Source of the DNA: Bacteroidales bacterium
Lineage (GTDB): Bacteria > Bacteroidota > Bacteroidia > Bacteroidales > P3
Direction: 5' to 3'
DNA length: 18,628 bases
Assembly (NCBI GenBank): GCA_017618625.1
Contig: JAFZTV010000050.1
Location: 1-18,628, forward strand
Within the stretch, counting starts at the first letter, position 1. The number at the start of each line of letters is the position of its first letter. The position numbers and the translations under genes are program-made. The notes under the pieces were generated by a model, which saw only the letters and a program-made list of their open reading frames with translations, was not told where the DNA came from and ran no database searches. This document shows positions 1,261-14,601 of this stretch, piece after piece.

Positions 1261-1280
1261 CGCCCTGTGCGGGCACGCAC
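1261..1280 (-). repeat. Stop-adjacent GC-rich hairpin repeat, copy 1
   Basis: On the minus strand this reads GTGCGTGCCCGCACAGGGCG and starts one base after the biotin carrier TAA. It can fold as GTGCG-TGCC-CGCAC, or alternatively as GCCC-GCACA-GGGC. Seven other copies occur in the window. Confidence 0.9.
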
Positions 1281-1281
1281 T

Positions 1282-1713
1282 TTATCCAATCACTATCAGC
1301 ACGTCGCCTTCGAGCACGCTGTCGCCTTTGCGGCATTTCACCTCGGTGACTGTTCCGGCTACGTCGCATTCGATGTTGTTTTCCATCTTCATGGCTTCGA
1401 GCAGCACTACTCGCTGACCGGCACTCACCTTGTCGCCAACGTTGACAAACACGTCGAGTATCGTACCGGGTAGGGGAGTGGTGACTTTCGTTCCGGCTCC
1501 GCCGGCTGCTGGTGCGGGTGCTGCAGCGGGAGCTGCAGGAGCAGCAGCGGCTTTCGGTGCGGGACGCTTCACGGTCGGTTTCTGTTTCACTTCGGCATCC
1601 ACGGTCACATTATACGGGGTGCCGTTTACATTCAGTTTTATTTCCTGGCCTTCCACCTCGTTGATGTCAACGTTGTAGTCGGTTCCATTTATTTTGAATT
1701 TGAAATTTTTCAT
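1282..1713 (-). CDS. mmdC: Biotin carboxyl carrier subunit of the decarboxylase
   Basis: Carries the biotin arm that shuttles CO2 from the MmdA carboxyltransferase to the membrane beta subunit. The 143-residue protein has a short N-terminal region, an Ala/Pro-rich hinge (about residues 50-75) and a C-terminal biotinyl domain. The biotinylation motif EAMKMEN places the modified Lys at residue 109. The start was set at 1713 (MKNFKFK), because the open frame further upstream runs through the 1745-1764 repeat and reads as non-family sequence. It follows the OadG-like gene by 85 bp and precedes mmdB by 107 bp. These are long gaps for an operon, filled in part by repeat copies. The family call is secure. 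Whether the same carrier also serves another carboxylase cannot be seen here. Confidence 0.95.
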   Translation of the reverse strand: MKNFKFKINGTDYNVDINEVEGQEIKLNVNGTPYNVTVDAEVKQKPTVKRPAPKAAAAPAAPAAAPAPAAGGAGTKVTTPLPGTILDVFVNVGDKVSAGQRVVLLEAMKMENNIECDVAGTVTEVKCRKGDSVLEGDVLIVIG

Positions 1714-1744
1714 TGCTCTATTTTTTATTTTTGATTCTGTATAT

Positions 1745-1764
1745 CGCCCTGTGCGGGCACGCAC
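1745..1764 (-). repeat. Stop-adjacent GC-rich hairpin repeat, copy 2 (distal of a pair)
   Basis: Identical over 20 nt to the copy at 1261. It lies 13 nt beyond copy 3, in the gap between the OadG-like gene and the biotin carrier gene. Confidence 0.9.
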
Positions 1765-1777
1765 TTTGAACCTTTGT

Positions 1778-1798
1778 CGCCCTGTCTGGGGCTCGCAC
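1778..1798 (-). repeat. Stop-adjacent GC-rich hairpin repeat, copy 3 (divergent)
   Basis: This 21-nt variant abuts the TAA of the OadG-like gene directly. Changes in its middle break the GTGCG/CGCAC stem, but the GCCC...GGGC pairing is kept with a 6-nt loop. It is the most diverged copy in the window. Confidence 0.8.
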
Positions 1799-2905
1799 TT
1801 ACTTTTTATTGAAATACTGGTTCATGTTGAAGCGTTTGTCGTTCCATGGTGTCCAGGTGCGTTCCACGTTCTGGATGGTTATCACCATGTCTTCGTCGTC
1901 GTGCAGCTCCTCGTTGTAGAGGTAGATGGCCGTCGCGATGGCGGCATACACGTCGCCGTCAACTGACTGCTGGCTGCCGGCCTCTGCAGGCTGACCGCCA
2001 TTATCGCCCGTACGGCCAGTACCCGACTGTTTTTTGGCTTCATCTTTCTTCTTGCGTTTCTCGTTCCAGCTCCTAATCGCCGAGCCGTAGCCCAACATGA
2101 TCAGGCACACACTTATCAGGGCGATAAACACCACCGACACGGCCACCACCGTCAGTCCCAATCCGTAGGGGTCCTGGTCGGCTATCACCTCCGACTGTTT
2201 TTTCTTGTGGTAGTTGTAGGGCTCGCCTTTGAAACTCAGCTCCTCGGGGAAATTGGTCAGGTCTACCACGGCGATGCTGTAACCGAGGGCGTTGGTGCCG
2301 ACCACGGTAATCTCTTTCGCCATCGGGTTGATGTCAAACGCGTAGGCGTTGAAATGCAGACCGAAATAGGATTTCTCCTTGCCGAAAGCGTAGCACAGCT
2401 TGTCTGCGTGTTCGCCCTCTTTCGCCGGTTCCGGCTCCATCGACAGGATTCCGATATGGGCGCTGTCTTTGGCCGAAGAAGCGAGGTAGATGATTTTGTC
2501 ACCCAACACCCATACCGACTTCGGTCGGTGGATGTTCTTCAGGTCGTGACGTTTGTAGAGGCTGTCGGTCACATGGCGGCCGATGAGCTTCATGTTGCCC
2601 GCTTCGTCGCGCTCCACAAGGTCGATCGCACAGTCGGTGCTGTCAACGACCACGTAGGCCTGCATCTCGGGTATGAAACAGATTTGGTTCGACTGGAATG
2701 TGACAGGCTGCTGCCCGTGCATCGGCATTCCATGATGGTGCATTTCGCACTCCGGAGGCATCTTGCCATCCTCTGGCGGCATCGGACGTTCCACTCCCTG
2801 CTTCGGTGGCATGGGGCGTTTGTGCGGCTTCTTGGCCGACAACCCGCCGGCAAACATCGCCACACATAGGACGCCGATCGTGAATAATTTATAGATTTTG
2901 TTCAT
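1799..2905 (-). CDS. OadG/MmdD-like decarboxylase subunit with periplasmic extension
   Basis: Likely the small anchoring subunit that holds the decarboxylase complex at the membrane. The 368-residue product begins with a signal-type sequence (residues 1-24). A Met/His/Pro-rich stretch follows (about 26-68, including CEMHHHGMPMHG), then a periplasmic domain of about 170 residues with beta-rich, propeller-like patterns. A single membrane helix (about 249-275) leads to a charged linker and a C-terminal segment with YAAIATAIYLYNEEL and VERTWTPW. The helix plus C-terminal part match the OadG family as I know it from Bacteroidales. Classical OadG proteins are only about 80 residues, so most of this one is extension. 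Position between mmdA and the biotin carrier supports the role. The function of the extension is unknown. Metal binding is an inference from composition and from the Zn2+ reported for Klebsiella OadG. Confidence 0.8.
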   Translation of the reverse strand: MNKIYKLFTIGVLCVAMFAGGLSAKKPHKRPMPPKQGVERPMPPEDGKMPPECEMHHHGMPMHGQQPVTFQSNQICFIPEMQAYVVVDSTDCAIDLVERDEAGNMKLIGRHVTDSLYKRHDLKNIHRPKSVWVLGDKIIYLASSAKDSAHIGILSMEPEPAKEGEHADKLCYAFGKEKSYFGLHFNAYAFDINPMAKEITVVGTNALGYSIAVVDLTNFPEELSFKGEPYNYHKKKQSEVIADQDPYGLGLTVVAVSVVFIALISVCLIMLGYGSAIRSWNEKRKKKDEAKKQSGTGRTGDNGGQPAEAGSQQSVDGDVYAAIATAIYLYNEELHDDEDMVITIQNVERTWTPWNDKRFNMNQYFNKK

Positions 2906-2944
2906 GTCTTAGCTTGTAAAAATCTGAATGAAAAAGTTTTGACC

Positions 2945-2985
2945 GAAAGGGAAAAGGGGAGGTGACGGCCTTTGCAACCGCCACC
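2945..2985 (-). terminator. Terminator-like hairpin after the Cys-rich gene
   Basis: Arms 2961-2968 and 2978-2985 pair on the minus strand (GGTGGCGG with CCGTCACC, one G-U) around a 9-nt loop, followed by a C/T-rich tract (TCCCCTTTTCCCTTT). It lies 19 nt beyond the Cys-rich stop and before the OadG-like gene. It may be a weak terminator or attenuator that lowers expression of the downstream genes. Confidence 0.45.
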
Positions 2986-3003
2986 TTTTGCCCTAAAGTG
3001 CTT

Positions 3004-3339
3004 TTATTTTTTGCAGCACTCTTTCTTCTCGCCGTCTTTGCAGCATTTGTGCTCGCCGTCTTTGCAGCACTCGGCTTTCTCTCCCTTGCATTGCTGCTTG
3101 CAGCATTTGTCGGTGCCGTGGTTCGGGCAGCCTTCGCAGTTCTTCGCTGCGCAGCTGTCGGGACAGGTGCAAGCTTCGGCGCACTGGTGGTCGCACTGGT
3201 GCTCACACTCGTGGTTGCACACCTCTTCGATGCTGTCGCTGCACTCAACAGTGACGTCGACGTTCTTCTTGCAGTTGCAGGCTACCATTCCAAATACGAA
3301 TACGGTAGCGATTGCGGCGGTCAATAAAACTTTTTTCAT
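3004..3339 (-). CDS. Small cysteine-rich lipoprotein, metallothionein-like composition
   Basis: The 111-residue product has a lipoprotein signal peptide (MKKVLLTAAIATVFVFGMVA with Cys21 as lipidation site). The mature part is packed with cysteines: 21 in the full protein including Cys21, arranged as CxxxC spacings (41/45/49/53/57), CxC, and repeated CC pairs (79/80, 91/92, 99/100, 108/109). The last 35 residues contain three related units of the type ECCKDGE/KCCKDGE/ECCKK. No known domain is recognised. Composition suggests metal binding or a disulfide-rich fold on the periplasmic face of a membrane. It sits in the decarboxylase operon between mmdA and the OadG-like gene, 146 bp and 98 bp from them, with a terminator-like hairpin behind it and no recognisable promoter of its own. 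Its link to the decarboxylase is positional only. Confidence 0.8.
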   Translation of the reverse strand: MKKVLLTAAIATVFVFGMVACNCKKNVDVTVECSDSIEEVCNHECEHQCDHQCAEACTCPDSCAAKNCEGCPNHGTDKCCKQQCKGEKAECCKDGEHKCCKDGEKKECCKK

Positions 3340-3396
3340 CTTTTTTTGTGATTTATGGGGTCGCCCCCTGGTTATTAATTAAATTTGAATTTCGAA

Positions 3397-3438
3397 TTCC
3401 GAATCTTGATACTTGAATCTTGAAACCTGAATCTTGAA
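3397..3438. repeat. Degenerate 14-bp tandem repeat
   Basis: Three units close to ACTTGAATCTTGAA (last two at 3411-3424 and 3425-3438, one mismatch apart; the first more diverged) sit directly beside the GC-rich repeat cluster after mmdA. A similar A/T-rich, low-complexity stretch borders the other tandem cluster at 14501-14557. No function is evident. Confidence 0.6.
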
Positions 3439-3440
3439 AC

Positions 3441-3460
3441 TGCCCTGTGCGGGCACGCAC
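3441..3460 (-). repeat. Stop-adjacent GC-rich hairpin repeat, copy 4
   Basis: Near-identical 20-nt copy in direct tandem with copy 5, distal to the mmdA stop. Confidence 0.9.
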
Positions 3461-3485
3461 CCCTGTGTGGGCACGCACCACGCAC
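3461..3485 (-). repeat. Stop-adjacent GC-rich hairpin repeat, copy 5 plus a 7-nt partial copy
   Basis: On the minus strand the mmdA TAG is followed immediately by GTGCGTG (partial copy, 3479-3485) and then by an 18-nt copy (3461-3478) with CACAC in place of CGCAC. With copy 4 this makes about 2.35 tandem units. Confidence 0.85.
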
Positions 3486-5045
3486 CTATAGCGGCAGGTT
3501 GCAGTGTTTCTTCATCGGTATCGAGTCTTTCTTCGTCGAGAGCACCTGAAGGGCGCGGATCACACGGAACCTCGTGTTCCTCGGCTCGATAACGTCGTCG
3601 ATGTAGCCGTATTTGGCTGCATTGTACGGGTTCGCGAACTGGTCGTTATACTCCTTCTCCTTCTCGGCGATGAACTTGGCTTTCTCGTCCGGGTCGGTTA
3701 TTTCTTTCAACGCGCGTCCCTGAAGCACCTCGGTGGCTCCGCTGGCTCCCATCACAGCTATCTGTGCCGTCGGCCATGCATAGTTGATGTCGCTTCTCAG
3801 CTGCTTGCAGCTCATCACGATGTGTGCGCCGCCGTAGCTCTTTCTCAGCGTCACCGTCACCTTAGGCACCGTCGCTTCGCCGTAGGCGTAGAGCATCTTC
3901 GCTCCGTGCACGATCACACCGTTGTACTCCTGGCCCGTTCCGGGCAGGAAGCCGGGCACGTCAACCAACGTCACCAGCGGTATGTTGAAAGCGTCGCAGA
4001 ATCTCACAAAGCGTGCGCCCTTTCTCGAGGCGTTGCAGTCCAACACGCCCGCCATAGCCTTCGGCTGGTTCGCTACCACTCCAACACTTCTGCCGCCCAT
4101 ACGTGCGAATCCGACCACCAGGTTCGGGGCGAATTTCTCGTGTACCTCCAAAAACTTGCCGTCGTCCACGATTGCGTTGATCACCTCTTTCACGTCGTAT
4201 GGCGTGTTCGGGTTCTCGGGTATGATGGTGTTGAGCGAGTCCTCCATGCGGTCGATGGGGTCGTCGGTCTCCACCATTGGAGCATCTTCGAAGTTGTTGC
4301 TCGGTATGTAGCTTACCAGGTCGCGGATGAGCTCGATGGTCGACTCCTCGGTCTCGCCCACAAAGTGAGCCACACCGCTCTTGGTGGCGTGCACCATGGC
4401 GCCGCCCAGTTTGTCCACCGTCACATCCTCGCCCGTCACCGTCTTCACCACCTTCGGGCCGGTCAGGAACATATAGCTGTTCTCCTTCGTCATCATGATG
4501 AAGTCGGTCAATGCCGGACTATACACAGCGCCGCCGGCGCAGGGTCCGAAGATAGCGCTGATCTGCGGCACCACTCCCGACGCCAGGATGTTCCTCTCGA
4601 AGATCTCCGCATATCCGGCCAGCGAATTGCAGCCTTCCTGTATTCTCGCTCCGCCCGAGTCGTTCAGTCCTATCACAGGCGCTCCCACCTTCATAGCCTG
4701 GTCCATCACCTTGCAGATCTTCAGCGACATCGTCTCGCTCAGCGAGCCGGCAAATACCGTGAAATCCTGTGCGAAGACATAAACCAGCCTTCCGTTGATG
4801 GTACCGTATCCCGTTACGACACCGTCGCCCAAAAACGACTGCTTCTGCATGTCGAAGTTCGTGCAGCGGTGGGTGACAAACATGTCAAACTCTTCAAACG
4901 AGCCCTCGTCCAACAGCATCGCGATCCTCTCGCGCGCCGTCAGCTTGCCCTGCTCGTGCTGTTTGTCGATACGCTTTTGACCTCCACCCATGCGGGCTTC
5001 GGTCCTCTTGTCAAGAAGCTCTTTTATTTTCTGTTCAAAAGCCAT
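3486..5045 (-). CDS. mmdA: Methylmalonyl-CoA decarboxylase alpha / propionyl-CoA carboxylase beta-type carboxyltransferase
   Basis: Transfers the carboxyl group of (S)-methylmalonyl-CoA to carrier-bound biotin, giving propionyl-CoA. The 519-residue protein has the two crotonase-fold halves of the acyl-CoA carboxyltransferase family. The N half carries SGGARIQEG (about 130-138) and [13 protein letters not shown] (about 167-179). The C half carries [16 protein letters not shown] (about 361-376) and YGGAHIVM (about 404-411), the oxyanion-hole regions. Length matches the family. The same family includes propionyl-CoA carboxylase beta chains. Decarboxylase is preferred because the neighbours encode OadB-type and OadG-type subunits and an epimerase, with no biotin carboxylase gene in the visible operon. 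It follows the epimerase gene by 110 bp. Its TAG stop is followed at once by the tandem GC-rich repeats. Confidence 0.95.
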
Positions 5046-5136
5046 AATGTGTTTTTGATTAAAAGGTTATTGTAATCGAGACCTTCCCTCAAGCCTTAAC
5101 GCCTCTCGTTCCAGCCTCATGAAAATCAATTCTGAC

Positions 5137-5156
5137 TGCCCTGTCCGGGCACGGAC
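5137..5156 (-). repeat. Stop-adjacent GC-rich hairpin repeat, copy 6, with compensatory stem change
   Basis: On the minus strand GTCCGTGCCCGGACAGGGCA. Its first base is the G of the epimerase TAG. Compared with other copies, both arms of the first stem differ (GTCCG/CGGAC for GTGCG/CGCAC), so pairing is preserved. Confidence 0.9.
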
Positions 5157-5563
5157 TACTTGCAGCACATTTCCGTCAATACTCCGAGGGTGCTCTTCGG
5201 GTGTAGGAAGCCGATCTTCAGGCCTTCTGCGCCGCCGCGGCTCTCCTTGTCTATCAGGCGCACTCCCTTGCCTTCGGCGTCTTTCAGCGCCTGGTCGGTG
5301 TTCTCCACCGCGAAGGCGATGTGGTGCATGCCCCCCTTGCCGCCGTTCTTCTCTATAAACGACGCGATGGTGCTCTCCGGGCAGGTCGGTTCGAGCAGCT
5401 CGATCTTGACCTCTCCGATTTTGAAGAATGCGGTCTTTACTTTCTGGTCTTTTACCTCTTCGATGGCGTAGCATTTCAGTCCCATTACATCTTCCCAGTA
5501 ACGGATAGCTTCGTCAAGGTTCGTCACGGCAATGCCGATGTGTTCAATGTGTGAAGGTGTCAT
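5156..5563 (-). CDS. mce: Methylmalonyl-CoA epimerase
   Basis: Interconverts (R)- and (S)-methylmalonyl-CoA, linking methylmalonyl-CoA mutase output to the decarboxylase encoded next. The 135-residue protein has two vicinal-oxygen-chelate halves. Candidate metal ligands in family positions are His8 (EHIGIAV), Glu55 (KIELLEP, where some homologues have Gln), His80 or His81 (GMHHIAF) and Glu131 (GVLTE). Length is normal for bacterial epimerases. It is the first gene of the operon: a TATATTTG promoter element lies 64 bp before the start, and clpB, also on the minus strand, ends with its own terminator further upstream. The mutase genes are not in this window. Confidence 0.95.
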   Translation of the reverse strand: MTPSHIEHIGIAVTNLDEAIRYWEDVMGLKCYAIEEVKDQKVKTAFFKIGEVKIELLEPTCPESTIASFIEKNGGKGGMHHIAFAVENTDQALKDAEGKGVRLIDKESRGGAEGLKIGFLHPKSTLGVLTEMCCK

Positions 5564-5626
5564 AATTGTTTGTATATCTTGTTATTAATTAATCTATATA
5601 AAGAGCGTATGCCCGAAATGAAAATG

Positions 5627-5634
5627 CAAATATA
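5627..5634 (-). promoter_or_regulatory. Bacteroidota-type -7 element for the propionate operon
   Basis: Minus strand TATATTTG matches TAnnTTTG. A CTTTG lies about 14 nt further upstream, closer than the usual -33 spacing. Transcription would start near 5620, leaving a leader of about 56 nt before mce. Confidence 0.6.
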
Positions 5635-5733
5635 CTAAATAATTTTAACAAAGCGTATTAGATGGGTTGTATATTTTTGGGCGACTGCAAATTCCTTCAG
5701 TTTGTCATTCTGGATGGCGTATCTACTCTGGAT

Positions 5734-5769
5734 AAAAAACAAAGCGGACTTTCAAATGGAAAGCCCGCT
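5734..5769 (-). terminator. Intrinsic terminator of clpB
   Basis: Minus strand AGCGGGCTTT pairs with AAAGTCCGCT (10 bp, one G-U) around a 7-nt loop and is followed by TTGTTTTTT. It lies 27 nt past the clpB stop and separates clpB from the propionate operon. Confidence 0.9.
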
Positions 5770-5796
5770 TGCAACTTTAATTGGGATGCTCGCCTG

Positions 5797-8379
5797 CTAC
5801 TGCCTGAACACAAACTGCCCGTCTTCGATGTCTATCAGGATGTTGTCCTTTGGGTTGATTTTGTCCTCCAGAATTTGTTTCGACAGCTCGTTGAGCAGCG
5901 TGCGTTGGATGACTCGCTTGATGGGGCGCGCACCCATCGATGGGTCGTAACCTTCGTTGGCCAGATGGTCTATGGCTGCGTCGGTTGCCGACACTATGAT
6001 GTCGTTCTTTTCCAGTGTCTGTGCCAGCAGGTTGAGCTGCAGTTTGACTATCTCGCGCACTTGCGTCAGGTCGAGCGGACGGAACATCACCACCTCGTCT
6101 ATACGGTTCAGGAATTCGGGCCGTATGCGCTGCCGCAGTAGGTTCATTATCTCATCTTTGGTTTTCTCCATGTCCTGCGTTGAGACTTCTCCGTCGTCGA
6201 TGTGGCGCTGAATCAGTTCGCTTCCTAGGTTGGAGGTCATGATGATGATGGTGTTGCGGAAGTCGGCTGTGCGGCCTTTGTTGTCGGTCAGTCGTCCGTC
6301 TTCAAGCACCTGCAGCAGGGTGTTGAACACATCGGGATGTGCTTTCTCTATCTCGTCAAACAGCACGATAGAGTAGGGCTTGCGTCTCACGGCTTCGGTC
6401 AGCTGGCCACTCTCGTCATATCCGACATATCCCGGAGGTGCTCCGATAAGTCGCGAGATGGAGTGCGGCTCCTGGTACTCTGACATGTCGATACGCACCA
6501 TCATGCTTTCGTCGTCAAATAGTGTCTCGGCCAGCGCCCTTGCCAGCTCGGTTTTGCCAACTCCTGTTGTCCCAAGGAAGAGGAACGACCCGACGGGACG
6601 GTGCGAGTCGGCCAATCCTGTACGGCTACGTCTTACGGCGTTGGCCACCAGTGCAACGGCTTCGTCCTGTCCCACGATGCGTTTGTGCAGCTCGTCTTCG
6701 AGGTGCAGCAGCCGCTCGCGTTCCGACTGGAGCATACGGGTCACGGGAATGCCTGTCCAGCGCGACACCACCTCGGCGATTTGCTCTGAATCGACTTCCT
6801 CGTTTATCATGGCGTTGTCGGCCTGCATCTGCTTCAGCTGCTCTTTCAGGTCGGTGACGTGCTTTTCAGCCTCCTTGATGCGCCCATAGCGCAGTTCGGC
6901 CACTTTGCCGTAGTCGCCGGCACGCTCGGCCTGCTCGGCCTGGAATTTGTATGACTCTATGTTCTTGACCTCGGTCTGTATCGCTTCGACGATGTTTTTC
7001 TCGTTCTGCCAGCGTGCCTTCATCTGGTTGCGCTGTTCACCCAACTGGGCAATCTCGTTTGAGAGCTGCGACAGCTTGTCCTGGTCGTTTTCGCGCTTTA
7101 TGGCTTCGCGTTCGATTTCGAGCTGGCGAATCCTGCGTTCTATTTCATCTAGTTCTTCGGGCACTGAGTCGATTTCAAGACGCAGCTTGGCTGCCGCTTC
7201 GTCTATAAGGTCTATGGCTTTGTCGGGCAGGAATCGGTCGCTTATGTATCGGTTCGAAAGTTCGGCTGCGGCGATGATGGCTTCGTCTTTGATACGCACC
7301 TTGTGGTGCACCTCGTAGCGCTCTTTCAATCCACGCAGTATGGATATGGTGTCGGCTACGTTGGGCTCGTCTATCAGCACACTCTGGAACCTGCGCGCCA
7401 GCGCTTTGTCCTTCTCGAAGTACTTCTGGTATTCGGCCAGCGTGGTGGCACCTATGGCCCGCAGCTCGCCACGCGCCAGAGCGGGTTTCAGTATGTTGGC
7501 GGCATCCATGGCTCCTTCTCCGCCGCCTGCTCCAACAAGGGTGTGTATCTCGTCGATGAAGAGGATTATCTCGCCGTCTGCTTCACACACTTCGCGGATG
7601 ACCGATTTCAGACGCTCCTCAAACTCTCCTTTATATTTTGCACCCGCAATCAACGCACCCATGTCAAGCGAGAATAGTGTCTTCGATTTCAGGTTCTCTG
7701 GTACGTCGCCCGACACTATGCGGTGCGCCAGACCTTCGGCTATGGCGGTCTTTCCTACGCCGGGTTCGCCTATCAGTATGGGGTTGTTCTTCGTCCTGCG
7801 CGAGAGGATTTGCAGCACACGGCGAATCTCGTCGTCTCTGCCAATCACGGGGTCTAACTTGCCGGCTTGCGCAAGCTGGTTGAGGTTTTTGGCGTATTTG
7901 TTCAGCGCGTTGAACGAGTCCTCGGCGCTCTGCGACGCCACCTTGCTCCCTTTCCGCAGGTCGGCTATCGCGGCTTTGAGGCCTTTCTCGCTCACTCCCG
8001 AGCCTTGCAGCATCTTGGCTACTTGGTCGTTGCCGTCAACAAGTCCCAGCAGCAGGTGCTCCACCGACACAAAGTCGTCGCCCATGGCGGTGGCCGTCTG
8101 CGAGGCTTTCACAAGGGCTTTGTTGGCGTCGTTTGATAGATACTGGTCGCCTCCGCTCACCTTGGGCATCGACTGCAGCATCGTGTCGGTCTGCTGGCTG
8201 ATGGAGGTGACGTTTGCGTCGAGTTTTTTGAAAAGATAGGGCGTGACGTTTTCGTCAACGGTGAGAAGCCCTTTCAGCAGGTGGCTTGTCTCGATGGCTT
8301 GGTGCTGGTTGACCGAGGCAATTTCCTGCGCCTTTTGCACGGCTTCCTGTGCTTTGATTGTAAAATTGTTTAGATTCAT
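5797..8379 (-). CDS. clpB: ATP-dependent disaggregase ClpB (Hsp100)
   Basis: Cytosolic hexameric AAA+ chaperone that extracts polypeptides from aggregates together with DnaK. The 860 residues show the full ClpB architecture. An N domain with two Clp repeats (about 1-150) precedes AAA-1 with Walker A GEPGVGKT (204-211), pore loop KYKGEFE (248-254) and Walker B ILFIDE (272-277). A coiled-coil middle domain (about 400-530) distinguishes it from ClpA and ClpC. AAA-2 has Walker A GTTGVGKT (603-610), pore loop GYVGY (650-654) and Walker B IVLFDEIE (671-678). No ClpP-binding loop is evident. It is a single-gene unit with a terminator at 5734. I see no standard -7 element upstream but do see inverted repeats (8416-8461 and 8498-8510), so stress-specific control is possible. 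Confidence 0.98.
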   Translation of the reverse strand: MNLNNFTIKAQEAVQKAQEIASVNQHQAIETSHLLKGLLTVDENVTPYLFKKLDANVTSISQQTDTMLQSMPKVSGGDQYLSNDANKALVKASQTATAMGDDFVSVEHLLLGLVDGNDQVAKMLQGSGVSEKGLKAAIADLRKGSKVASQSAEDSFNALNKYAKNLNQLAQAGKLDPVIGRDDEIRRVLQILSRRTKNNPILIGEPGVGKTAIAEGLAHRIVSGDVPENLKSKTLFSLDMGALIAGAKYKGEFEERLKSVIREVCEADGEIILFIDEIHTLVGAGGGEGAMDAANILKPALARGELRAIGATTLAEYQKYFEKDKALARRFQSVLIDEPNVADTISILRGLKERYEVHHKVRIKDEAIIAAAELSNRYISDRFLPDKAIDLIDEAAAKLRLEIDSVPEELDEIERRIRQLEIEREAIKRENDQDKLSQLSNEIAQLGEQRNQMKARWQNEKNIVEAIQTEVKNIESYKFQAEQAERAGDYGKVAELRYGRIKEAEKHVTDLKEQLKQMQADNAMINEEVDSEQIAEVVSRWTGIPVTRMLQSERERLLHLEDELHKRIVGQDEAVALVANAVRRSRTGLADSHRPVGSFLFLGTTGVGKTELARALAETLFDDESMMVRIDMSEYQEPHSISRLIGAPPGYVGYDESGQLTEAVRRKPYSIVLFDEIEKAHPDVFNTLLQVLEDGRLTDNKGRTADFRNTIIIMTSNLGSELIQRHIDDGEVSTQDMEKTKDEIMNLLRQRIRPEFLNRIDEVVMFRPLDLTQVREIVKLQLNLLAQTLEKNDIIVSATDAAIDHLANEGYDPSMGARPIKRVIQRTLLNELSKQILEDKINPKDNILIDIEDGQFVFRQ

Positions 8380-8561: not shown

Positions 8562-8601
8562 CACCCGTTTTCGTAACTCGGTAATATGGCGACGGAACGA
8601 T

Positions 8602-8686: not shown

Positions 8687-8690
8687 CAGA

Positions 8691-8720
8691 AAAACGGTTG
8701 GCATTTGCCGACCGTTTTTT
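8691..8720 (+). terminator. Intrinsic terminator of tRNA-Ser
   Basis: ACGGTTGGC (8694-8702) pairs with GCCGACCGT (8707-8715) with one G-U around ATTT, followed by a run of T. It begins five bases after the mature tRNA end. Confidence 0.92.
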
Positions 8721-8861
8721 GTTTGATTATGTCAGTCTGAGTTCGTCGCTTCTCTCGTCTTATGGCTGCTCACCTGTCTTGTTTTATTTCTCAGAAGCCC
8801 GTTAAGTCTCATTTGGCGATAAATATTATCGCTATTTTTATAATTATCCGATTTTTTTTCT
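8721..8861. other. Spacer with a small AT-rich hairpin
   Basis: No credible gene. GCGATAA (8816-8822) and TTATCGC (8826-8832) form a perfect 7-bp hairpin with a 3-nt loop, followed by TATTTTTATAATT. It lies just upstream of the TACTTTTG element and could be an operator or a weak terminator. Confidence 0.4.
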
Positions 8862-8869
8862 TACTTTTG
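8862..8869 (+). promoter_or_regulatory. Possible -7 element upstream of the structured RNA
   Basis: TACTTTTG matches TAnnTTTG and is preceded by a T-rich tract. A transcript from here would begin near 8876 and include three small hairpins before the large one, among them AACTAT-GGGTAA-ATAGTT (8929-8946). Confidence 0.45.
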
Positions 8870-8953
8870 CAGTGGTATTTCACAGAAAATACTAAACCGC
8901 TTTAAACCAAAACCTAACCAACATGAGTAACTATGGGTAAATAGTTTTTGCTA

Positions 8954-8961
8954 TAAATTTG
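8954..8961 (+). promoter_or_regulatory. Alternative -7 element for the structured RNA
   Basis: TAAATTTG matches TAnnTTTG. A start near 8968 would give an RNA of about 160 nt whose ends can pair (AACTT 8971-8975 with AAGTT 9109-9113). It overlaps a 5-bp hairpin (GCTAT/GTAGC), so it may instead be part of a longer RNA. Confidence 0.35.
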
Positions 8962-8967
8962 TAGCGT

Positions 8968-9130
8968 TTTAACTTGTCATTAGGCTGAGTTCGATACCTG
9001 GAAAGTTTCAAACAGCACCATACTTTGATAAAGTAAGAACGCTCGCGGTTTGCCGTGAGCTTTTTGTCTGTATGGTGGGTAATTCCAGGACCTCGAACTC
9101 GATTCAAAAAGTTCTCGGCATTTTTATTTT
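8968..9130 (+). ncRNA. Candidate structured non-coding RNA (6S-like outline)
   Basis: A nearly unbranched long hairpin can be drawn by eye. Outer stem: 8987-8994 with 9093-9100 (8 bp), a 2x3 internal loop, then 8997-9003 with 9083-9089 (7 bp). Next come a large asymmetric bubble (9004-9015 against 9078-9082), a perfect 8-bp stem CACCATAC/GTATGGTG (9016-9023 with 9070-9077), a 17x9 internal loop, and a terminal stem GCTCGCGG/CCGTGAGC (9041-9048 with 9053-9060, one G-U) with loop TTTG. A long rod with a central bubble and about 160 nt length recalls 6S RNA. Bacteroidales are also known to carry conserved structured RNAs such as the Bacteroidales-1 motif. No strong terminator follows; CATTTTTATTTT (9119-9130) is the best end. 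No protein is predicted here. Identity as 6S is a guess from shape; the existence of structure is visible. A leader element for ilvE is less likely because ilvE has its own promoter at 9260. Confidence 0.5.
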
Positions 9131-9151
9131 CAATCGCATAGTTATAAATTG

Positions 9152-9199
9152 TTTTCTGACCTCTAATATAAAATGCTTGATTCTCAGTAGGTCAGAAAA
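9152..9199. repeat. Perfect 11-bp inverted repeat upstream of the ilvE promoter
   Basis: TTTTCTGACCT (9152-9162) and AGGTCAGAAAA (9189-9199) are exact reverse complements separated by 26 AT-rich bases. The arms place T at the 5' side and A at the 3' side, so it is not an intrinsic terminator on either strand. It ends 60 bp before the ilvE -7 element and could be an operator. Confidence 0.6.
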
Positions 9200-9259
9200 A
9201 TGTAGTTACTTGATGGCTAAAAATGGGGAACGGATATGTACTATTCTCATTTTTTTTTG

Positions 9260-9267
9260 TACCTTTG
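9260..9267 (+). promoter_or_regulatory. -7 element for ilvE
   Basis: TACCTTTG matches TAnnTTTG and is preceded by a T-run. Start expected near 9274, with a leader of about 38 nt. Confidence 0.65.
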
Positions 9268-9311
9268 CGACTATCAATCATCTATGTTAAACACATAATA
9301 AATTAAAACAC

Positions 9312-10325
9312 ATGAATATAGATTGGCAAAACCTTCCGTTTGGTTACGTGAAAACGGATTACAATGTTCGCTGCTGGTACCGCAACGGTGCTTGGGGTGA
9401 AGTCGAGGTCTCTTCCTCCGAACATATCGAGATGCACATGGCCGCCTCGAGCCTCCACTACGGTCAGGAAGCCTTCGAGGGCCTTAAAGCCTATCGCTGC
9501 AAAGACGGTAAGATCCGCATCTTCCGCCCCGAAGCCAACGCCGAGCGTCTGCAGAGCACCTGCCGCGGAATCATGATGCCGGAACTCTCCACCGAGAAAT
9601 TCGTCGAGATGTGCAAACAGGTGGTCAAGCTCAACGAGCGTTTCATCCCGCCTTACGGCACCGGCGCCAGCCTCTACCTCCGTCCGCTGCTCATCGGAAC
9701 CGGCATCACCGTGGGTGTGAAACCCGCCGACGAGTATCTGTTCATGATCTTTGTAACCCCCGTGGGGCCTTACTTCAAGGGTGGTTTCAAAGCCAATCCC
9801 TATGTCATCACCCGCAAGTTTGACCGTTCCGCTCCTCTCGGAACCGGTGTCTATAAGGTCGGTGGTAACTACGCTGCATCCCTCCGCGCCCACGTTGAAG
9901 CTTGCCATGGTGGCGAGTACGCCTGCGAGTTCTATCTCGACGCCAAGGAGAAGAAATATGTCGACGAAGCCGGAGCCGCCAACTTCTTCGGCATCAAGGA
10001 CGGTGTCTATGTGACACCCAAGTCAACCTCTATCCTTCCCTCCATCACCAACAAGAGCCTTATGCAGCTCGCCGAGGATATGGGCATGAAGGTCGAGCGT
10101 CGTCCTATCGACGTCGAGGAGCTGGCCACCTTCCAGGAAGCTGGCGCTTGCGGCACTGCCGCTGTCATCAGCCCCATCGAGCGTCTTGACGACCCCGAGA
10201 CAGGCAAGTCCTACAACTTCGGCAAAGAGCCCGGCCCCATCAGCACCAAGCTCTATCACGCTCTCCGTGCTATCCAGCTCGGCGAGGCCGAAGACAAGCA
10301 CAACTGGAACACCGTTATGGATTAA
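9312..10325 (+). CDS. ilvE: Branched-chain amino acid aminotransferase
   Basis: PLP-dependent fold-type IV transaminase that exchanges amino groups between glutamate and the 2-oxoacids of Leu, Ile and Val, acting in the last step of their synthesis or the first of their breakdown. The 337-residue protein has the family segments SSLHYGQEAFEGLKAY (about 46-61), PYGTGASLYLRPLLIGTG (about 114-131) and GVYKVGGNYAAS (179-190), with Lys182 as the expected PLP Schiff-base residue. EAGAANFFGIK and TPKSTSILPSITNKS follow in the C half. The longer variant with YLRP fits the eukaryote-like/class II BCAT branch common in Bacteroidota. It is monocistronic: own -7 element at 9260, terminator at 10352. An inverted repeat and a structured RNA candidate lie upstream. 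Codons are strongly C-ending, suggesting high expression. Confidence 0.96.
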   Translation: MNIDWQNLPFGYVKTDYNVRCWYRNGAWGEVEVSSSEHIEMHMAASSLHYGQEAFEGLKAYRCKDGKIRIFRPEANAERLQSTCRGIMMPELSTEKFVEMCKQVVKLNERFIPPYGTGASLYLRPLLIGTGITVGVKPADEYLFMIFVTPVGPYFKGGFKANPYVITRKFDRSAPLGTGVYKVGGNYAASLRAHVEACHGGEYACEFYLDAKEKKYVDEAGAANFFGIKDGVYVTPKSTSILPSITNKSLMQLAEDMGMKVERRPIDVEELATFQEAGACGTAAVISPIERLDDPETGKSYNFGKEPGPISTKLYHALRAIQLGEAEDKHNWNTVMD

Positions 10326-10351
10326 TCCACCATCGGACACATAAACAAAGA

Positions 10352-10380
10352 AGAGCCCCGTGCCATCAGCACGGGGCTCT
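10352..10380. terminator. Bidirectional terminator between ilvE and the lipoprotein gene
   Basis: A perfect 12-bp stem AGAGCCCCGTGC/GCACGGGGCTCT with loop CATCA sits between convergent genes. The minus-strand tail is T-rich (TTCTTTGTTTAT); the plus-strand tail is TCTCTTAAT. Confidence 0.9.
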
Positions 10381-10404
10381 CTCTTAATATCAAACCAATC
10401 TCTT

Positions 10405-11028
10405 TTAGAGACCGTAGCTCATATAGTAAACCGAACCTGAATAGGTGAAGCTGATGTCGTTTCTCGCAACCTCATTGCCGCTCATGTTGGAAGCTCCCAC
10501 ATTCGTTGCCTCGATCGAGACTGTCACGTTGTTTCCTACACGGGTGACGCTGAAGGTCGTGCCAGCTGGGAACCTGTATGTGCCGACATTTTTGTCCCAG
10601 GCATAATTAGTCTCCGTATTGTCGCAAGTGTATGTACCTGTCTCAAGTGCCTGGTTGAGGCTGAACGAAACGCTGTAGTCGCCCGAAAGGTAAATGGCGG
10701 GTTTGTACGAATCGTAGAATTGCAGCGTGGTGTGTATCGAACCGCCGGTGTTGACTTCCGACAGGTGACCGATCACGATGCTGTGGGTCTGGTCGCCTAT
10801 TGTGAGCGTGCCGTTGCCGTTGGCAACCGCCATGCTGTCGGCGCCCACGGTCCATTCGTTGAATGTAGTGGTCTGTCCACCGCCGGGAGTGTCAGGTGTG
10901 GTCGGCGTGTCGGTATTTGTGCCTCCGTTACCACCGTTGTTGTCGCCATCGTTGTCTTTCTTGCAGCCGGTCATAACCATAGCCACAACTGCCATAATGC
11001 ATGCAAAAACATAGAATGTCTTTTTCAT
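10405..11028 (-). CDS. Hypothetical lipoprotein with low-complexity linker
   Basis: A 207-residue secreted protein with a lipoprotein signal (MKKTFYVFACIMAVVAMVMT then Gly, Cys22). The Asn/Gly/Asp- and Thr/Pro-rich linker (about residues 23-55) is typical of outer-membrane-anchored Bacteroidota lipoproteins; the acidic residues just after the Cys (CKKDNDGDN) resemble surface-export signals. The remaining 150 residues read as beta-strand-rich (for example TLTIGDQTHSIVIGHL, IYLSGDYSVSFSLN, TFSVTRVGNNVTVSIEATN). No catalytic motif is recognised and I cannot name a family. It is transcribed alone from a TATCTTTG element at 11070, divergent from the DUF3267-type gene, and ends at the bidirectional hairpin shared with ilvE. 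Confidence 0.85.
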   Translation of the reverse strand: MKKTFYVFACIMAVVAMVMTGCKKDNDGDNNGGNGGTNTDTPTTPDTPGGGQTTTFNEWTVGADSMAVANGNGTLTIGDQTHSIVIGHLSEVNTGGSIHTTLQFYDSYKPAIYLSGDYSVSFSLNQALETGTYTCDNTETNYAWDKNVGTYRFPAGTTFSVTRVGNNVTVSIEATNVGASNMSGNEVARNDISFTYSGSVYYMSYGL

Positions 11029-11069
11029 AATAGTTAGTTTTATGGGTTAATAATGTTTATTCAGCACTG

Positions 11070-11077
11070 CAAAGATA
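11070..11077 (-). promoter_or_regulatory. -7 element for the lipoprotein gene
   Basis: Minus strand TATCTTTG matches TAnnTTTG, about 42 nt before the start codon. Divergent from the plus-strand element 33 bp away. Confidence 0.7.
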
Positions 11078-11109
11078 TACATTTTATTCGATAAATAAAA
11101 ACTATGGTG

Positions 11110-11117
11110 TATCTTTG
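11110..11117 (+). promoter_or_regulatory. -7 element for the HExxH membrane protein gene
   Basis: TATCTTTG followed by GC. Start expected near 11124, only about 12 nt before the ATG at 11136. Confidence 0.65.
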
Positions 11118-11135
11118 CAAAAAACACAATCAAGT

Positions 11136-11708
11136 ATGCGTACAAAACAAGCCGAACCGATACCCTCTGTAGTAGGCTGTGAGCCAGAACTTAAAACTGT
11201 CAGCATCATGAAGGCCAACCTCATAAGTATCCCGTTCCTGTTTGTTGTGGGAGGCCTCTCGGGTTGGATATATTACAAGGTGTGGCACACCTTCGAGTGG
11301 AACGGGATGGAGAATGCTCTATGGATGTTTGTCGCTATCGTAGTTGGCATTGTCGTCCACGAACTTATCCACGGGCTTACCTGGATGGCTGTCACCCGTC
11401 AGTCGTTCAAACACCTCTCTTTTGGAACAATGTCCGGTGCCGTTTACTGCCATATCGATGTGCCGATGAAAAAACGTCCATATATAATAGGTGCCGTTAT
11501 GCCTCTCCTGCTGCTGGGCGTTATCCCGACGGTTGTCTCTATGGTTGTGGGTAGTACCTTCTGGCTTGTGTTTGGAGTCATCTTTATCGTTTGCGCTATT
11601 GGCGACATCATGATAATGTGGATTATCCGCCGCGAACCGTCTGACACGCTCATCTACGACCACCCCACCGAAGCTGGCTGCGTAGTTTATCGTCGTGTGT
11701 CCGAGTGA
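11136..11708 (+). CDS. Membrane protein of DUF3267 type, putative zinc metalloprotease
   Basis: The 190-residue protein shows about four hydrophobic segments (about 28-48, 60-80, 115-138, 142-164). HELIHG lies at 75-80 inside the second, matching a HExxH zincin motif. A GD pair near 156-157 in the last segment could supply the third ligand, as in site-2-protease-like families. The layout fits DUF3267, a family of putative intramembrane zincin peptidases with unknown substrates. The start at 11136 was chosen because the frame further upstream has only a TTG inside the promoter element. It is monocistronic with its own terminator. Protease activity is inferred from the motif. Confidence 0.8.
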   Translation: MRTKQAEPIPSVVGCEPELKTVSIMKANLISIPFLFVVGGLSGWIYYKVWHTFEWNGMENALWMFVAIVVGIVVHELIHGLTWMAVTRQSFKHLSFGTMSGAVYCHIDVPMKKRPYIIGAVMPLLLLGVIPTVVSMVVGSTFWLVFGVIFIVCAIGDIMIMWIIRREPSDTLIYDHPTEAGCVVYRRVSE

Positions 11709-11731
11709 GTTGAAGGCTGCATGTAAATAGA

Positions 11732-11763
11732 AAAGGCGTACAGGGGTGTCTCTGTACGCCTTT
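11732..11763. terminator. Bidirectional terminator between convergent genes
   Basis: AAAGGCGTACAG (11732-11743) pairs perfectly with CTGTACGCCTTT (11752-11763) around an 8-nt loop. The plus-strand tail ends in TTTCTTG, and the minus-strand arm ends in TTTT. It serves the DUF3267-type gene and probably the Spy-like gene. Confidence 0.88.
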
Positions 11764-11781
11764 CTTGTAATGCGTGTGTTT

Positions 11782-12234
11782 TTATTTCTTGTTTACGGGG
11801 TGCAGGAACGAAGTCAGTTGCTTTTTGACTTCGCGTTTCTGCCGTTCTCGCTCCAGGTTCTCACGCAACTCTTTCTGCTGGTCGTCGGTCAGTATTTTGT
11901 CGATGCGCATCTTCGTGCGGTACTTCGCCTGGTCGATTTTGACATACAGTGCCGACCGTTGGGCGTAAAGAGGAAACAGCTCCGAGCTCCTGTCGCCCGG
12001 CAGTCCGTAGTAGTGCTGTATCTCTTTGTGCAGGTCGCTCAGCTGCTGGCGGTAGTCTTCCAGCGTCTTCTTGCTTTCCATCGTTACCGTTTTCAGCTCG
12101 TCCTGCTGCTGCTTCGTCAGCGTCTTGACAAACTTGGCAACATCGGGCGGCGTATATGCGTTGTCATACCCCGACTGCGCCGTCGCCATGCTGGCCATCG
12201 CGCAGAAAAGTATTATCGCTGCAATCCTTCTCAT
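11782..12234 (-). CDS. Spy/CpxP-like periplasmic protein
   Basis: A 150-residue exported protein: signal peptide (MRRIAAIILFCAMASMATAQ, cleavage after about residue 19), then an almost wholly helical, charged mature part. LTKQQQDEL (about 39-47) and LTDDQQKEL (about 115-123) resemble the LTxxQ repeats of Spy/CpxP-type periplasmic chaperones and metal sensors. It is the third gene of the ECF sigma cluster, 16 bp after the putative anti-sigma gene, so it may be a regulon output or sensor partner. Assignment to the Spy/CpxP superfamily is by motif and shape only. Confidence 0.7.
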   Translation of the reverse strand: MRRIAAIILFCAMASMATAQSGYDNAYTPPDVAKFVKTLTKQQQDELKTVTMESKKTLEDYRQQLSDLHKEIQHYYGLPGDRSSELFPLYAQRSALYVKIDQAKYRTKMRIDKILTDDQQKELRENLERERQKREVKKQLTSFLHPVNKK

Positions 12235-12250
12235 GGCTCGATCCGAAAGG

Positions 12251-12613
12251 TCAGATGGTTTCGTCTATGCCCAGCAGTATGTCGATATAGTCAGGCGTGT
12301 AGTACACCACGTCGGCCTGGTTCTGGCGGTTGTATATCTCAGAGATGAATTTAGCCATGCCGTCGTTCTCGTTCTGCGCTTGGGTCGAGCCGGTGTTGCC
12401 GACAAACAGCAGCAGTGCTACCGATGCGGCCGCGAGGCTCATGGTTCCAATCGTCCAGCGCACGCGACGTTCTCTCTTTATGCTGAATTTCTCTTTGGTT
12501 TCAGCCTCTTTCAGGCGCTCCATCACCTGGTCCACCACGTCCACCTCTCTGGCATACTTAGACTTGGCCAGTTCGTTGAGTGTCTTTTCCAGTTCTGTGT
12601 CTGTGTATTTCAT
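12251..12613 (-). CDS. Small single-pass membrane protein, putative anti-sigma factor
   Basis: The 120-residue product has a charged helical N-terminal half (VVDQVMERLKEAETKEKF), one membrane helix at about 53-71 (WTIGTMSLAAASVALLLF) and a short outer part ending in DYIDILLGIDETI. Its start overlaps the sigma factor stop as ATGA, implying translational coupling. A cytosolic helical segment plus one transmembrane helix directly after an ECF sigma gene is the usual arrangement of membrane anti-sigma factors. No zinc-binding (HxxxCxxC) motif is present, so it is not a ZAS-type anti-sigma. The role is inferred from context. Confidence 0.7.
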   Translation of the reverse strand: MKYTDTELEKTLNELAKSKYAREVDVVDQVMERLKEAETKEKFSIKRERRVRWTIGTMSLAAASVALLLFVGNTGSTQAQNENDGMAKFISEIYNRQNQADVVYYTPDYIDILLGIDETI

Positions 12614-13140
12614 TTCACTAGCATTTTTCTTAGGTTGTTCTTCGCGCGGAATATCAGCGATTCCACTTTTGCCAGGCTCCAGCCCATCGATTCGGCTATC
12701 TCGTTGTACGACTTCTCTTCGAATGTGTACAGCACCAAGGCTGTTCTCTGGTCTTCTTTCAGTTTTTGTATTGCGTTTTGCAGTTGTGTTATTTTCTCGT
12801 TGTATATGATGTCCTCTTCTACGTTCCTCTCCTCGCTCATTCTGTCAAACCGTGTGCTGTCGTCCTCGGTCACTATCCTTTTCTCTCTCGAAAGCATCTT
12901 CGACACTACGTTCACCGTTATCCGGTATATGAACGTGCTCAGCTTCGACTCGTTCCTGAACCTCGGCAGCGCTTGGTATAGCTCCACGAACACCTGTTGT
13001 GTCACCTCGTCTATGTCCAGCCTGTTTCCGCACAGCTTGTAGCACAGATTTACCACATTCATCTGATTCTCACTCACTATCCGTGCAAAGAGGTCTCTCT
13101 CGCCGTCCAGGATTTTCTGTATGAGTTCTTGTTCGCTCAC
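12610..13140 (-). CDS. ECF-type RNA polymerase sigma factor
   Basis: A 176-residue sigma-70 family protein limited to regions 2 and 4. Region 2 spans about 17-83, including VTQQVFVELYQALPRF and the RNESKLSTFIYRITVN segment typical of -10 recognition helices. Region 4 spans about 113-174, with the helix-turn-helix YNEIAESMGWSLAKVESLIFRA (read as YNEIAESMGW then SLAKVESLIF). It would direct transcription of a stress or envelope regulon under control of the membrane protein encoded next. The gene follows der by 52 bp with no clear -7 element between them, so it may be cotranscribed with der or use an autoregulated promoter not recognisable as TAnnTTTG. Confidence 0.93.
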   Translation of the reverse strand: MSEQELIQKILDGERDLFARIVSENQMNVVNLCYKLCGNRLDIDEVTQQVFVELYQALPRFRNESKLSTFIYRITVNVVSKMLSREKRIVTEDDSTRFDRMSEERNVEEDIIYNEKITQLQNAIQKLKEDQRTALVLYTFEEKSYNEIAESMGWSLAKVESLIFRAKNNLRKMLVK

Positions 13141-13192
13141 TGGCCTTTGCTTATTATAAGTACTACTATTGCCTAAAAACTTGCAACTTTTT

Positions 13193-14500
13193 CTATTTTT
13201 CTCTGAAATAAATTGTCATCGGCACCCCGTGGAAGTCCCACATCTCTCTCATCCGGTTCTCTACGAAGCGTTTGTAAGGGTCTCTTACATACTGCGGTAG
13301 GTTGCAGAAAAACACAAATTGCGGGTATGCCGTGGGCAGTTGGGTGATGTATTTTATTTTTATCCACTTTCCCTTCACCGACGGCGGCGGGTTCTGCTCT
13401 TTCACTATCGGCAGCATCTTTTCGTTCAGCTCCGCCGTGCTTATCCTGCGGCTCCTCGCCTCATACACCTGCTTCGCCGTCTCCAACACCTTGAATATAC
13501 GCTGTTTGTTTATCACCGAGGTGAATATGATTGGCACATCCTCAAACGGCGAGATTCGTTCCCTTATCAGCTGCTCGAATTCCCCGTGTGTCTTGTGGTC
13601 TTTCTCTATCAGGTCCCACTTGTTCACCACCACCACCACTCCTTTGTTGTTGCGGCTCACCAGCGAGAATATGTTCAAATCCTGCTGCTCAAGCCCCTGC
13701 GACGCGTCGAGCATCAGTATGCACACGTCGCTGTTCTCTATGGCTCTTATCGACCTCATCACCGAGTAAAACTCCAGGTTCTCCTCCACCTTGCTTTTCT
13801 TCCTCAATCCTGCCGTATCGACGAAGTTGAAATCGAAGCCGAACATGTTGTAGTGTGTGTATATCGAATCCCTTGTCGTGCCGGCTATCGGCGTCACTAT
13901 GTTGCGGTCCTGTCCTGTTATCATGTTGATAAACGACGACTTGCCTACGTTCGGCCTTCCCACCACCGCTATTCTCGGCAGTTCGTCGCCCGTGTCTATC
14001 TCCACTTCTTTGAAGTCTTTGACCACCTCGTCCAGCAGGTCGCCCGTGCCGCTTCCGCTTATCCCCGCTATGGGGTATATCTCTCCAAGTCCCAGCTGGT
14101 AGAACTCCGCTATGTCGTTCGCCACGTTCGTGTCGTCCACCTTGTTCGCCACCAGCAGCACCTTCTTTGTCGTTTTACGCAGCATCGCCGCCACGTCCTC
14201 GTCCATCGGAGTCAGCCCTTCGCGCACATCCACCAGAAACAGTATCACGTCGGCCTCCTCTATCGCCAGCTGCACCTGTCGGCGTATCTCCGTCTCGAAC
14301 GTGTCGTCGCCGCCCATCACATATCCGCCCGTGTCTATCACCGAAAACTTTTTCCCGTTCCAGTCGCTGTGGCCGTACTGCCGGTCTCTTGTCACACCGC
14401 TCACACTGTCCACAATCGCCTTCCTCTCGCCCGTCAGGCGGTTGAAAAGCGTCGACTTGCCCACATTCGGCCGTCCCACTATTGCAACGATATTACTCAT
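13193..14500 (-). CDS. der: Ribosome assembly GTPase Der (EngA)
   Basis: Essential GTPase of 50S subunit maturation. The 435-residue protein has two tandem G domains and a C-terminal KH-like domain, an arrangement unique to Der. G domain 1: GRPNVGKST (9-17), DTGG (57-60), NKVD (119-122). G domain 2: GRPNVGKSS (181-189), DTAG (about 233), NKWD (about 295). The C-terminal part (about 350-435) includes [15 protein letters not shown] and the FFCNLP segment of the KH domain. Length is normal. It lies 101 bp downstream of the TPR gene, with two repeat copies in the gap, and upstream of the sigma gene. No separate promoter was seen. Confidence 0.98.
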
Positions 14501-14557
14501 AGGTTCAAAACTTAAAACTCACAATTTCAATTTACAATTTTCCAGTTCATAATTAAT

Positions 14558-14577
14558 CGCCCCGTGTGGGCACGCAC
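14558..14577 (-). repeat. Stop-adjacent GC-rich hairpin repeat, copy 7
   Basis: Minus strand GTGCGTGCCCACACGGGGCG, distal member of a pair after the TPR gene, separated from copy 8 by TATT. One arm base of the first stem is mismatched; GCCC/GGGC pairing is kept. Confidence 0.9.
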
Positions 14578-14581
14578 TATT

Positions 14582-14601
14582 CGCCCTGTGCGGGCACGCA
14601 C
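14582..14601 (-). repeat. Stop-adjacent GC-rich hairpin repeat, copy 8
   Basis: Identical over 20 nt to copies 1 and 2, and directly abutting the TAG of the TPR gene 13 kb away from copy 1. Confidence 0.92.

Follow-up and report, generated by a model that had tools for sequence, protein, structure and literature searches.

Rickettsia palindromic elements (RPEs) are palindromes which are read in-frame within genes, have no known mover and are longer than the element described here. They are named in PMC3733652, the accessible part of which also describes repetitive extragenic palindromes (REPs), palindromes that lie near gene 3' ends and can carry tags supplying a TAG stop. The REPs of Escherichia coli within 15 nucleotides (nt) of a stop codon, 260 of 496 by an earlier count and 446 of 4,072 by a later one, are tied to translation control in the accessible part of PMC12306157, whilst TAACTGA heptamer repeats lie mostly upstream of start codons according to the accessible text of PMC4679880. 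The subject of this study is a hairpin element of about 20 nt found in an 18,628-nt stretch of DNA from a Bacteroidales bacterium (assembly GCA_017618625.1, contig JAFZTV010000050.1), the whole of which is referred to as the window, and in related genomes, where many copies start exactly at a stop codon.

The element resembles REPs, and the GTAG- and CGTC-tagged palindromes associated with REP-associated tyrosine transposases (RAYTs), in being a small palindrome with many dispersed extragenic copies just 3' of coding regions, some of which supply a TAG or lie within a gene, as far as the accessible parts of PMC3733652 and PMC12306157 describe those families. Unlike REPs, it has no GTAG or CGTC tag, is about 20 nt long, lies mostly in one orientation and peaks at exactly 0 or -1 from the stop, instead of within about 20 nt as in the accessible REP literature; nor was a Y1 transposase found in the element-rich carriers. 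With RPEs it has in common the presence of in-frame copies within genes, but it is shorter and most of its copies are at gene ends; it is also no tandem heptamer. A literature search with its first 18 letters gave no match, and searches on REP-like and stop-codon repeats found no description of it. What is new relative to the literature searched is the single-base register combined with sense orientation, with no tag or transposase found, and the occurrence of one core in two phyla. We put the probability that the element is a short mobile REP-like palindrome, tolerated or mildly useful at stop codons, at roughly 0.55.

Results

Copies in the window

Seven minus-strand matches to the consensus GTGCGTGCCCGCACAGGGCG with at most three mismatches were found in the window (marked "scan" below), where shuffled sequences lead one to expect 0.01. 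An eighth copy, adjoining the stop of an OadG-like gene, is degenerate, being 21 nt long with one stem broken (1798 downward: GTGCGAGCCCCAGACAGGGCG). Offsets are those of the element's first base, 0 being flush with the stop.

1261..1280, minus strand: exact element, scan; +1, one nt past the biotin carrier TAA (TAA-A-element)
1745..1764, minus strand: exact element, scan; second copy past the OadG-like stop (+34)
1778..1798, minus strand: degenerate 21-nt copy read from the sequence, flush with the OadG-like TAA (offset 0)
3441..3460, minus strand: element with one mismatch, scan; second tandem unit (18-nt period) past mmdA, starting at +25
3461..3478, minus strand: 18-nt tandem unit, first near-complete copy, +7 from the mmdA stop (scan match 3459-3478)
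3479..3485, minus strand: 7-nt 5' fragment GTGCGTG, flush with the mmdA TAG
5137..5156, minus strand: GTCCG...CGGAC variant (one stem 1 pair, both sides changed), scan; overlaps the last base of the mce TAG
14558..14577, minus strand: element with two mismatches, scan; second copy past the TPR gene
14582..14601, minus strand: exact element, scan; flush with the TPR gene TAG (offset 0)

These copies follow five stops, those of the mce, mmdA-like, OadG-like and biotin carrier genes, which form one gene row, and that of a TPR gene. All are sense relative to the gene upstream, in agreement with the preliminary description made from the letters of this DNA. That description had counted eight copies, a number which holds if the degenerate one is admitted, and had placed the first copy at every locus within one base of the stop. 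The placement stands for the biotin carrier (+1), OadG-like (0, by the degenerate copy), mce (-1, TA-GTCCG, the G of TAG being common to stop and element) and TPR (0) genes. It fails at mmdA, for which an offset of 0 had been given: only the 7-nt fragment, identical in one relative (G003, below), is flush there, and the near-complete copies follow at +7 and then +25. As the mmdA tandem has a period of 18 nt, the scan matches 3459-3478 and 3441-3460 share two bases. The element was also correctly said to occupy nearly every junction of the operon, being present at four of the five in the row from mce to the decarboxylase beta gene; the junction without it is that 3' of a small gene at 3004-3339. 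An Rfam scan of the window at gathering score returned only a tRNA and no RNA family match for the element.

Distribution across genomes

Scanning the genome collection for exact 19-mer matches yielded 102 stretches (loci L001-L102), mainly from three Bacteroidales metagenome-assembled genomes (MAGs) and nine Oscillospiraceae, Ruminococcus and Clostridia MAGs, plus lone matches elsewhere, some of which resemble ordinary coding sequence (e.g., L027, L077, and L098). The Bacteroidales MAGs RGIG8179, RUG12008 and Tb.RUG.96 are labelled G001, G002 and G003; since long window matches to them are about 77-89% identical, we take them as close relatives of the source of the window, probably congeneric. 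The records of RGIG8179, RGIG8346 and RGIG6603 give "rumen", and the RUG, RUI and SIG isolates are, judging by prefix, presumably from rumen too. At up to two mismatches the whole genomes hold 107 (G001), 68 (G002) and 20 (G003) copies, with 22 in the Oscillospiraceae genome G007, nine in G009, three in G005, two in G008 and one each in G004 and G006, whilst a reversed-pattern control gave none in each of the nine. Within a sample of G001 and 60 relatives, to which G003 and G005 did not belong, 57/61 genomes had no copy at this threshold, the four carriers being G001, G002, and, with one copy each, G004 and G006. Oscillospiraceae copies mostly have AGACGC, or something similar, directly after the core and form a longer, nested hairpin. 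Viral contigs searched for exact occurrences of two element variants contained none, and carriage by phage was rejected on this result.

Register with the stop codon

The retrieved G001 stretches hold 86 copies at up to three mismatches, 78 of which belong to the 107 found genome-wide. Removal of 11 tandem followers left 75: 43 co-directional and sense, none co-directional and antisense, five convergent, two divergent, 19 inside called genes and six close to locus edges. With the in-gene, edge and divergent copies set aside, 48 sense intergenic copies remained for the offset count, and 34 of these have their first base at -1 or 0 relative to the stop. A stop-like triplet (YAR or TGA) as the sole DNA target was rejected, as only 111 of the 2,736 such triplets in G001 3' regions are the actual stop, which would give 4.1% of copies at stops against the 71% observed (binomial p about 2e-36). 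The base at -1 is a purine in 84/86 copies. The stretches L001-L102 were chosen for holding an exact copy, and the background is formed by 20-kb stretches hand-picked on contigs known to carry copies, which are non-random and in some cases cover listed copies; in those from G001, GTGCGT directly follows 10/182 stops.

A sharp sense-strand peak at -1 to +1 had been proposed as the test, and G001 has one; it is weaker in G002 (9/18 sense copies, with 16 sense and eight antisense among 24 co-directional primary copies) and in G003 (3/8, with eight sense and one antisense). Another six G002 copies start between +2 and +6, and in five of these RTG precedes the core. In the window 3/5 are within stop register, in G007 4/13 are at 0 or +1 with the remainder as far away as +236, and in other Ruminococcaceae the figure is 1/6. 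TAG is enriched at flush sites (22/43 vs. 227/946 genes, p 2e-4) and convergent ends are under-represented (43 co-directional and 5 convergent copies vs. 128 and 42, p 0.045). Some copies, at L065 and L091 (G002) and L016 (G003), make up a tiny open reading frame, ATG-GTGCGT...-TAA/TAG (MVRARTGR/H), straight after the stop.

Orthologs without the element

Flush elements were found at 51 of the 1,027 called genes in the retrieved stretches, corresponding to 43 ortholog groups, and for 23 of these groups another species provides an ortholog that lacks the element. In 19 of the 23, the protein and at least one such ortholog end at the identical residue, and in the other four the ends lie one residue apart. 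Pairs with equal protein ends number 33/37 at flush sites and 306/438 for genes without the element (p 0.013, the pairs not being independent); conservation of the C-terminal end at flush sites is no worse, and rather better, than in element-free genes. These comparisons show copies placed at the ancestral stop, the end of the protein being preserved.

Two sites look like clean insertions when filled and empty forms are compared. The biotin carrier junction reads TAAA-element-TTGTATTG in the window and TAAATTGTTAATT in G003, being filled in the window and G002 and empty in G001 and G003. The TPR junction is filled in the window, G001 and G003 and empty in G002 and G005, the post-stop sequence resuming in G005 past the position of the tandem elements. 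At L181 and L185, biotin carrier junctions of relatives without the element, other low-complexity inverted repeats follow the stop. The mce copy is also present in G002 and G003, and the OadG-like stop of G001 has a one-mismatch copy at the equivalent position. Read by eye, of the 22 G001 sites for which G003 has an ortholog, five are filled in that genome as well (two of them decayed); the corresponding figure for G002 is 0/15, whereas G002 and G003 have 5/8 sites in common. Gradual deletion of a spacer is an unlikely source of flush copies, because several exact-consensus G001 copies that are missing in relatives are already flush. The idea that insertion converts the stop to TAG was also dropped: 16 vs. 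3 changes by non-independent pairs become 6 vs. 3 by independent sites (p 0.5).

Copies in genes, at tRNA ends and as hairpins

Mid-gene copies with up to three mismatches lie at 24 places, 19 sense and five antisense, some of which may be chance or ordinary coding. They are often in variable loops, are read in three frames as VRARTG, CVPAQG, and ACPHRA, and in several cases are preceded by CAG or CAA. At gene ends the element lengthens the protein in genes which we take, from their protein sequences, to be LigA-, DapF-, UvrA- and Ddl-like. The turnover and the in-gene copies together are the behaviour of a mobile palindrome. Annotators should be on guard, since no frame of the core contains a stop and it creates false starts and C-terminal tails.

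Among 44 loci scanned, 3/5 tRNA genes (Pro-GGG, Pro-CGG, and Trp, in Ruminococcus) have a copy exactly 1 nt past the encoded CCA, and a pattern search of 13 genomes returned these three tRNA-adjoining copies and no further one; their downstream flanks are alike, so the three are possibly not independent. Since the Ruminococcus core adjoins tRNA 3' ends, a stop codon is not always required for placement of the element. At L017, L029 and L036 the core lies between the tRNA CCA and a terminator-like hairpin.

Covariation was analysed on 57 of 71 variants, 14 divergent ones having been left out by eye, and rerun with all 71; as subfamilies spread by copying, the cells counted are not events. Stem 1 (positions 1-5 with 10-14) has 10 cells changed on both sides vs. 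3.2 in shuffles (0/500), or 10 vs. 3.4 with all variants, and no excess of changed pairs (2 vs. 1.8; 290/500). One G-C to C-G change, that of the GTCCG...CGGAC variant, accounts for nine of the 10. Stem 2 (6-9 with 17-20), formed in part by the loop of stem 1, does not rise above shuffles, having three such cells vs. 2.3 (200/500), or 3 vs. 1.2 with the 10:16 pair included (55/500). The energies of the two hairpins are similar, at about -7 to -9 kcal/mol. The stems may represent alternative hairpins or together make up a small pseudoknot.

Arrays at the same position

The 42 nt from the stop are periodic at 14/346 stops in G001, 28/405 in G002 and 9/312 in G003, vs. none in shuffles. In 49 of these 51 cases (of 1,063 stops) the period is 7 or 8, in two it is 9, and in 24/51 the stop codon itself is in the array register, a stop triplet opening two or more of the three units that follow. 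The units are TAGTTTT/TAGTTTC in G003, TAAGCTG/TAAGTTT and TGAAGGTG in G001, and TGATTGCT/TGAATGCT in G002 (e.g., L193 and L204); those of 7 or 8 bases place stops in all frames. The TAACTGA heptamers, which according to the accessible text of PMC4679880 are short intergenic repeats with a patchy distribution over phyla and give stops in every frame, are similar to these arrays. Some genes have the hairpin in one species and a 7- or 8-base array in another at the identical base, a hint that the stop register is not peculiar to the hairpin element.

Discussion

The preliminary description had offered two readings, an RNA element acting at translation termination, mRNA 3'-end processing or stability, and a REP-like element whose insertion target includes the stop. 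The latter is the better supported, as copies turn over, sit in genes and have element-free orthologs ending at the same residue; the former fits the sense orientation. In the explanation we favour, an element of about 20 nt, or an 18-nt unit in tandem, would have multiplied in some rumen Bacteroidales, with a form sharing the same core in Oscillospiraceae, by DNA insertion carried out by an enzyme. Copies at stops would persist since they leave the protein intact and their transcribed hairpin does no harm, or is of slight use between cistrons, perhaps as a barrier to 3'-5' decay or as a translation damper, a role reported for those E. coli REPs that lie within 15 nt of a stop. The high copy numbers (107, 68, and 20, with 0 for the reversed pattern), the register, the sense orientation, the 19/23 kept C-terminal ends, the filled and empty sites, the in-gene copies and the paucity of convergent copies all speak for it.

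Several findings pull the other way. Clean filled and empty pairs exist at two sites only, and elsewhere the downstream sequence is mostly unalignable from the stop onward; 26/37 downstream comparisons aligned better than shuffles, and apart from the clean sites homology mostly resumes further downstream, so that replacement instead of simple insertion is possible there. Some common copies are decayed (OadG-like, window and G001), which argues against a strong function, and in G002 eight of the 24 primary co-directional copies run antisense, with no anchoring to stops. Searches for the Y1 transposase (PF01797) found none in G001, G002, G003, G007 or G009, although these are draft MAGs in which absence is not proof, and one in G005, which has three copies only; no reverse transcriptase (RVT_1) was found in G001 or G003. 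The explanation thus comes without a candidate mover, and it does not account for insertion at precisely the stop codon as opposed to other positions in the 3' region.

That the element is instead a selected RNA device at the stop, serving termination, 3'-end stabilisation or the uncoupling of cistrons, with copies arising widely and only those at stops kept, seems to us unlikely but deserving of attention. The exclusively sense copies at co-directional G001 junctions and the compensatory change in stem 1 agree with it, as do the mmdA site, GTCCG...CGGAC in G002 and GTGCG...CGCAC in G003 and the window, and the mce copy, identical in three species despite a drifting spacer. However, nearly all of the stem 1 signal comes from a single pair in a single variant, whose spread may be due to copying, changed pairs do not exceed shuffles, few G001 sites are shared and some copies are decayed, and selection would have to distinguish offset 0 from +1 to +3. 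A classical REP moved by a RAYT, the gene for which would have been lost or overlooked in the MAGs, with the tag supplying the TAG stop, is a decidedly doubtful proposition; a Y1 gene is present in the related low-copy G005, but GTAG precedes only 5/86 copies in G001 (2/35 in G002, 0/10 in G003, 1/7 in the window), flank profiles of G001 and G002 have no fixed tetranucleotide on either side, and with no transposase in the element-rich carriers, including the three Bacteroidales, it was rejected in its classical form. Only slightly more improbable than that would be a general insertion hot spot at stop codons, in which a process that senses the termination of translation, or else the mature 3' ends of gene products such as tRNAs, adds differing repeats at the same base in sense orientation, as the arrays and tRNA copies might suggest. 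We are aware of no mobile element described so far that makes such use of the stop codon.

Very little weight is given to insertion at the RNA level guided by translation termination, where a ribosome-dependent, RelE-like cut at the stop codon would mark the site and the product would return to DNA. RelE cleaves at UAG, UAA, and CAG according to the accessible text of PMC7180214, and the exact register, the sense orientation, the TAG excess and the CAG or CAA before several in-gene copies are in keeping with such a route. Against it, copies adjoin tRNA 3' ends and conversion of other stop codons into TAG is non-significant by independent sites; a reverse-transcriptase route was rejected on the absence of RVT_1 from G001 and G003 (it is present in G002, G004, G005, and G007), and an RNA-ligase idea on the lack of pattern in RtcB, found in G001, G007 and G009 and absent in G002 and G003. 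Least probable of all is a family of intrinsic terminators or attenuators. Two window copies fit a loose terminator pattern and four consecutive Ts occur within 10 nt after 6/35 G002 copies, yet such runs follow only 2/86 copies in G001 and 0/7 in the window, terminator-like counts match shuffles (7 vs. 7.1; 3 vs. 2.4), and copies lie within gene rows and are under-represented at convergent ends; a standard intrinsic terminator was rejected on these counts.

If insertion itself sets the register, there would be a route by which bacterial DNA insertion reads the ends of translation or of gene products, a feature absent from any transposition model known to us. If selection sets it, the first bases past the stop would be under stronger functional control than has been assumed, a point for which nature provides dozens of filled and empty sites as a test.

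Genes of the window

Gene starts and ends are those of a gene caller run here, not of an annotation.

5..1123, minus strand: Na+-translocating decarboxylase beta subunit (start may be 1174; TIGR01109 and PF03977 on 5-1174)
1282..1713, minus strand: biotin carrier protein gene (PF00364)
1799..2905, minus strand: OadG-like gene (PF04277 above cut-off, E 9e-10; TIGR01195 under cut-off)
3004..3339, minus strand: small open reading frame rich in cysteine and lysine, no NCBIfam or Pfam match, no element past its stop
3486..5045, minus strand: carboxyltransferase, mmdA-like (PF01039, E 2e-198; TIGR01117 under cut-off)
5156..5563, minus strand: methylmalonyl-CoA epimerase gene, mce (TIGR03081, E 2e-44, above cut-off)
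13193..14500, minus strand: GTPase Der (EngA), downstream of the TPR junction (TIGR03594)
14602..15705, minus strand: TPR protein gene (gene caller and profile search)

In the OadG-like gene (1799-2905) and the G001 loci L092 and L035, loops and C-termini contain a GASRTGDN / GTGRTGDNGGQ protein stretch that may be a related in-gene repeat, a sister to the element. An 11-bp tandem array (TGATACGGNGT) lies at 15921-15989, upstream of the TPR gene.

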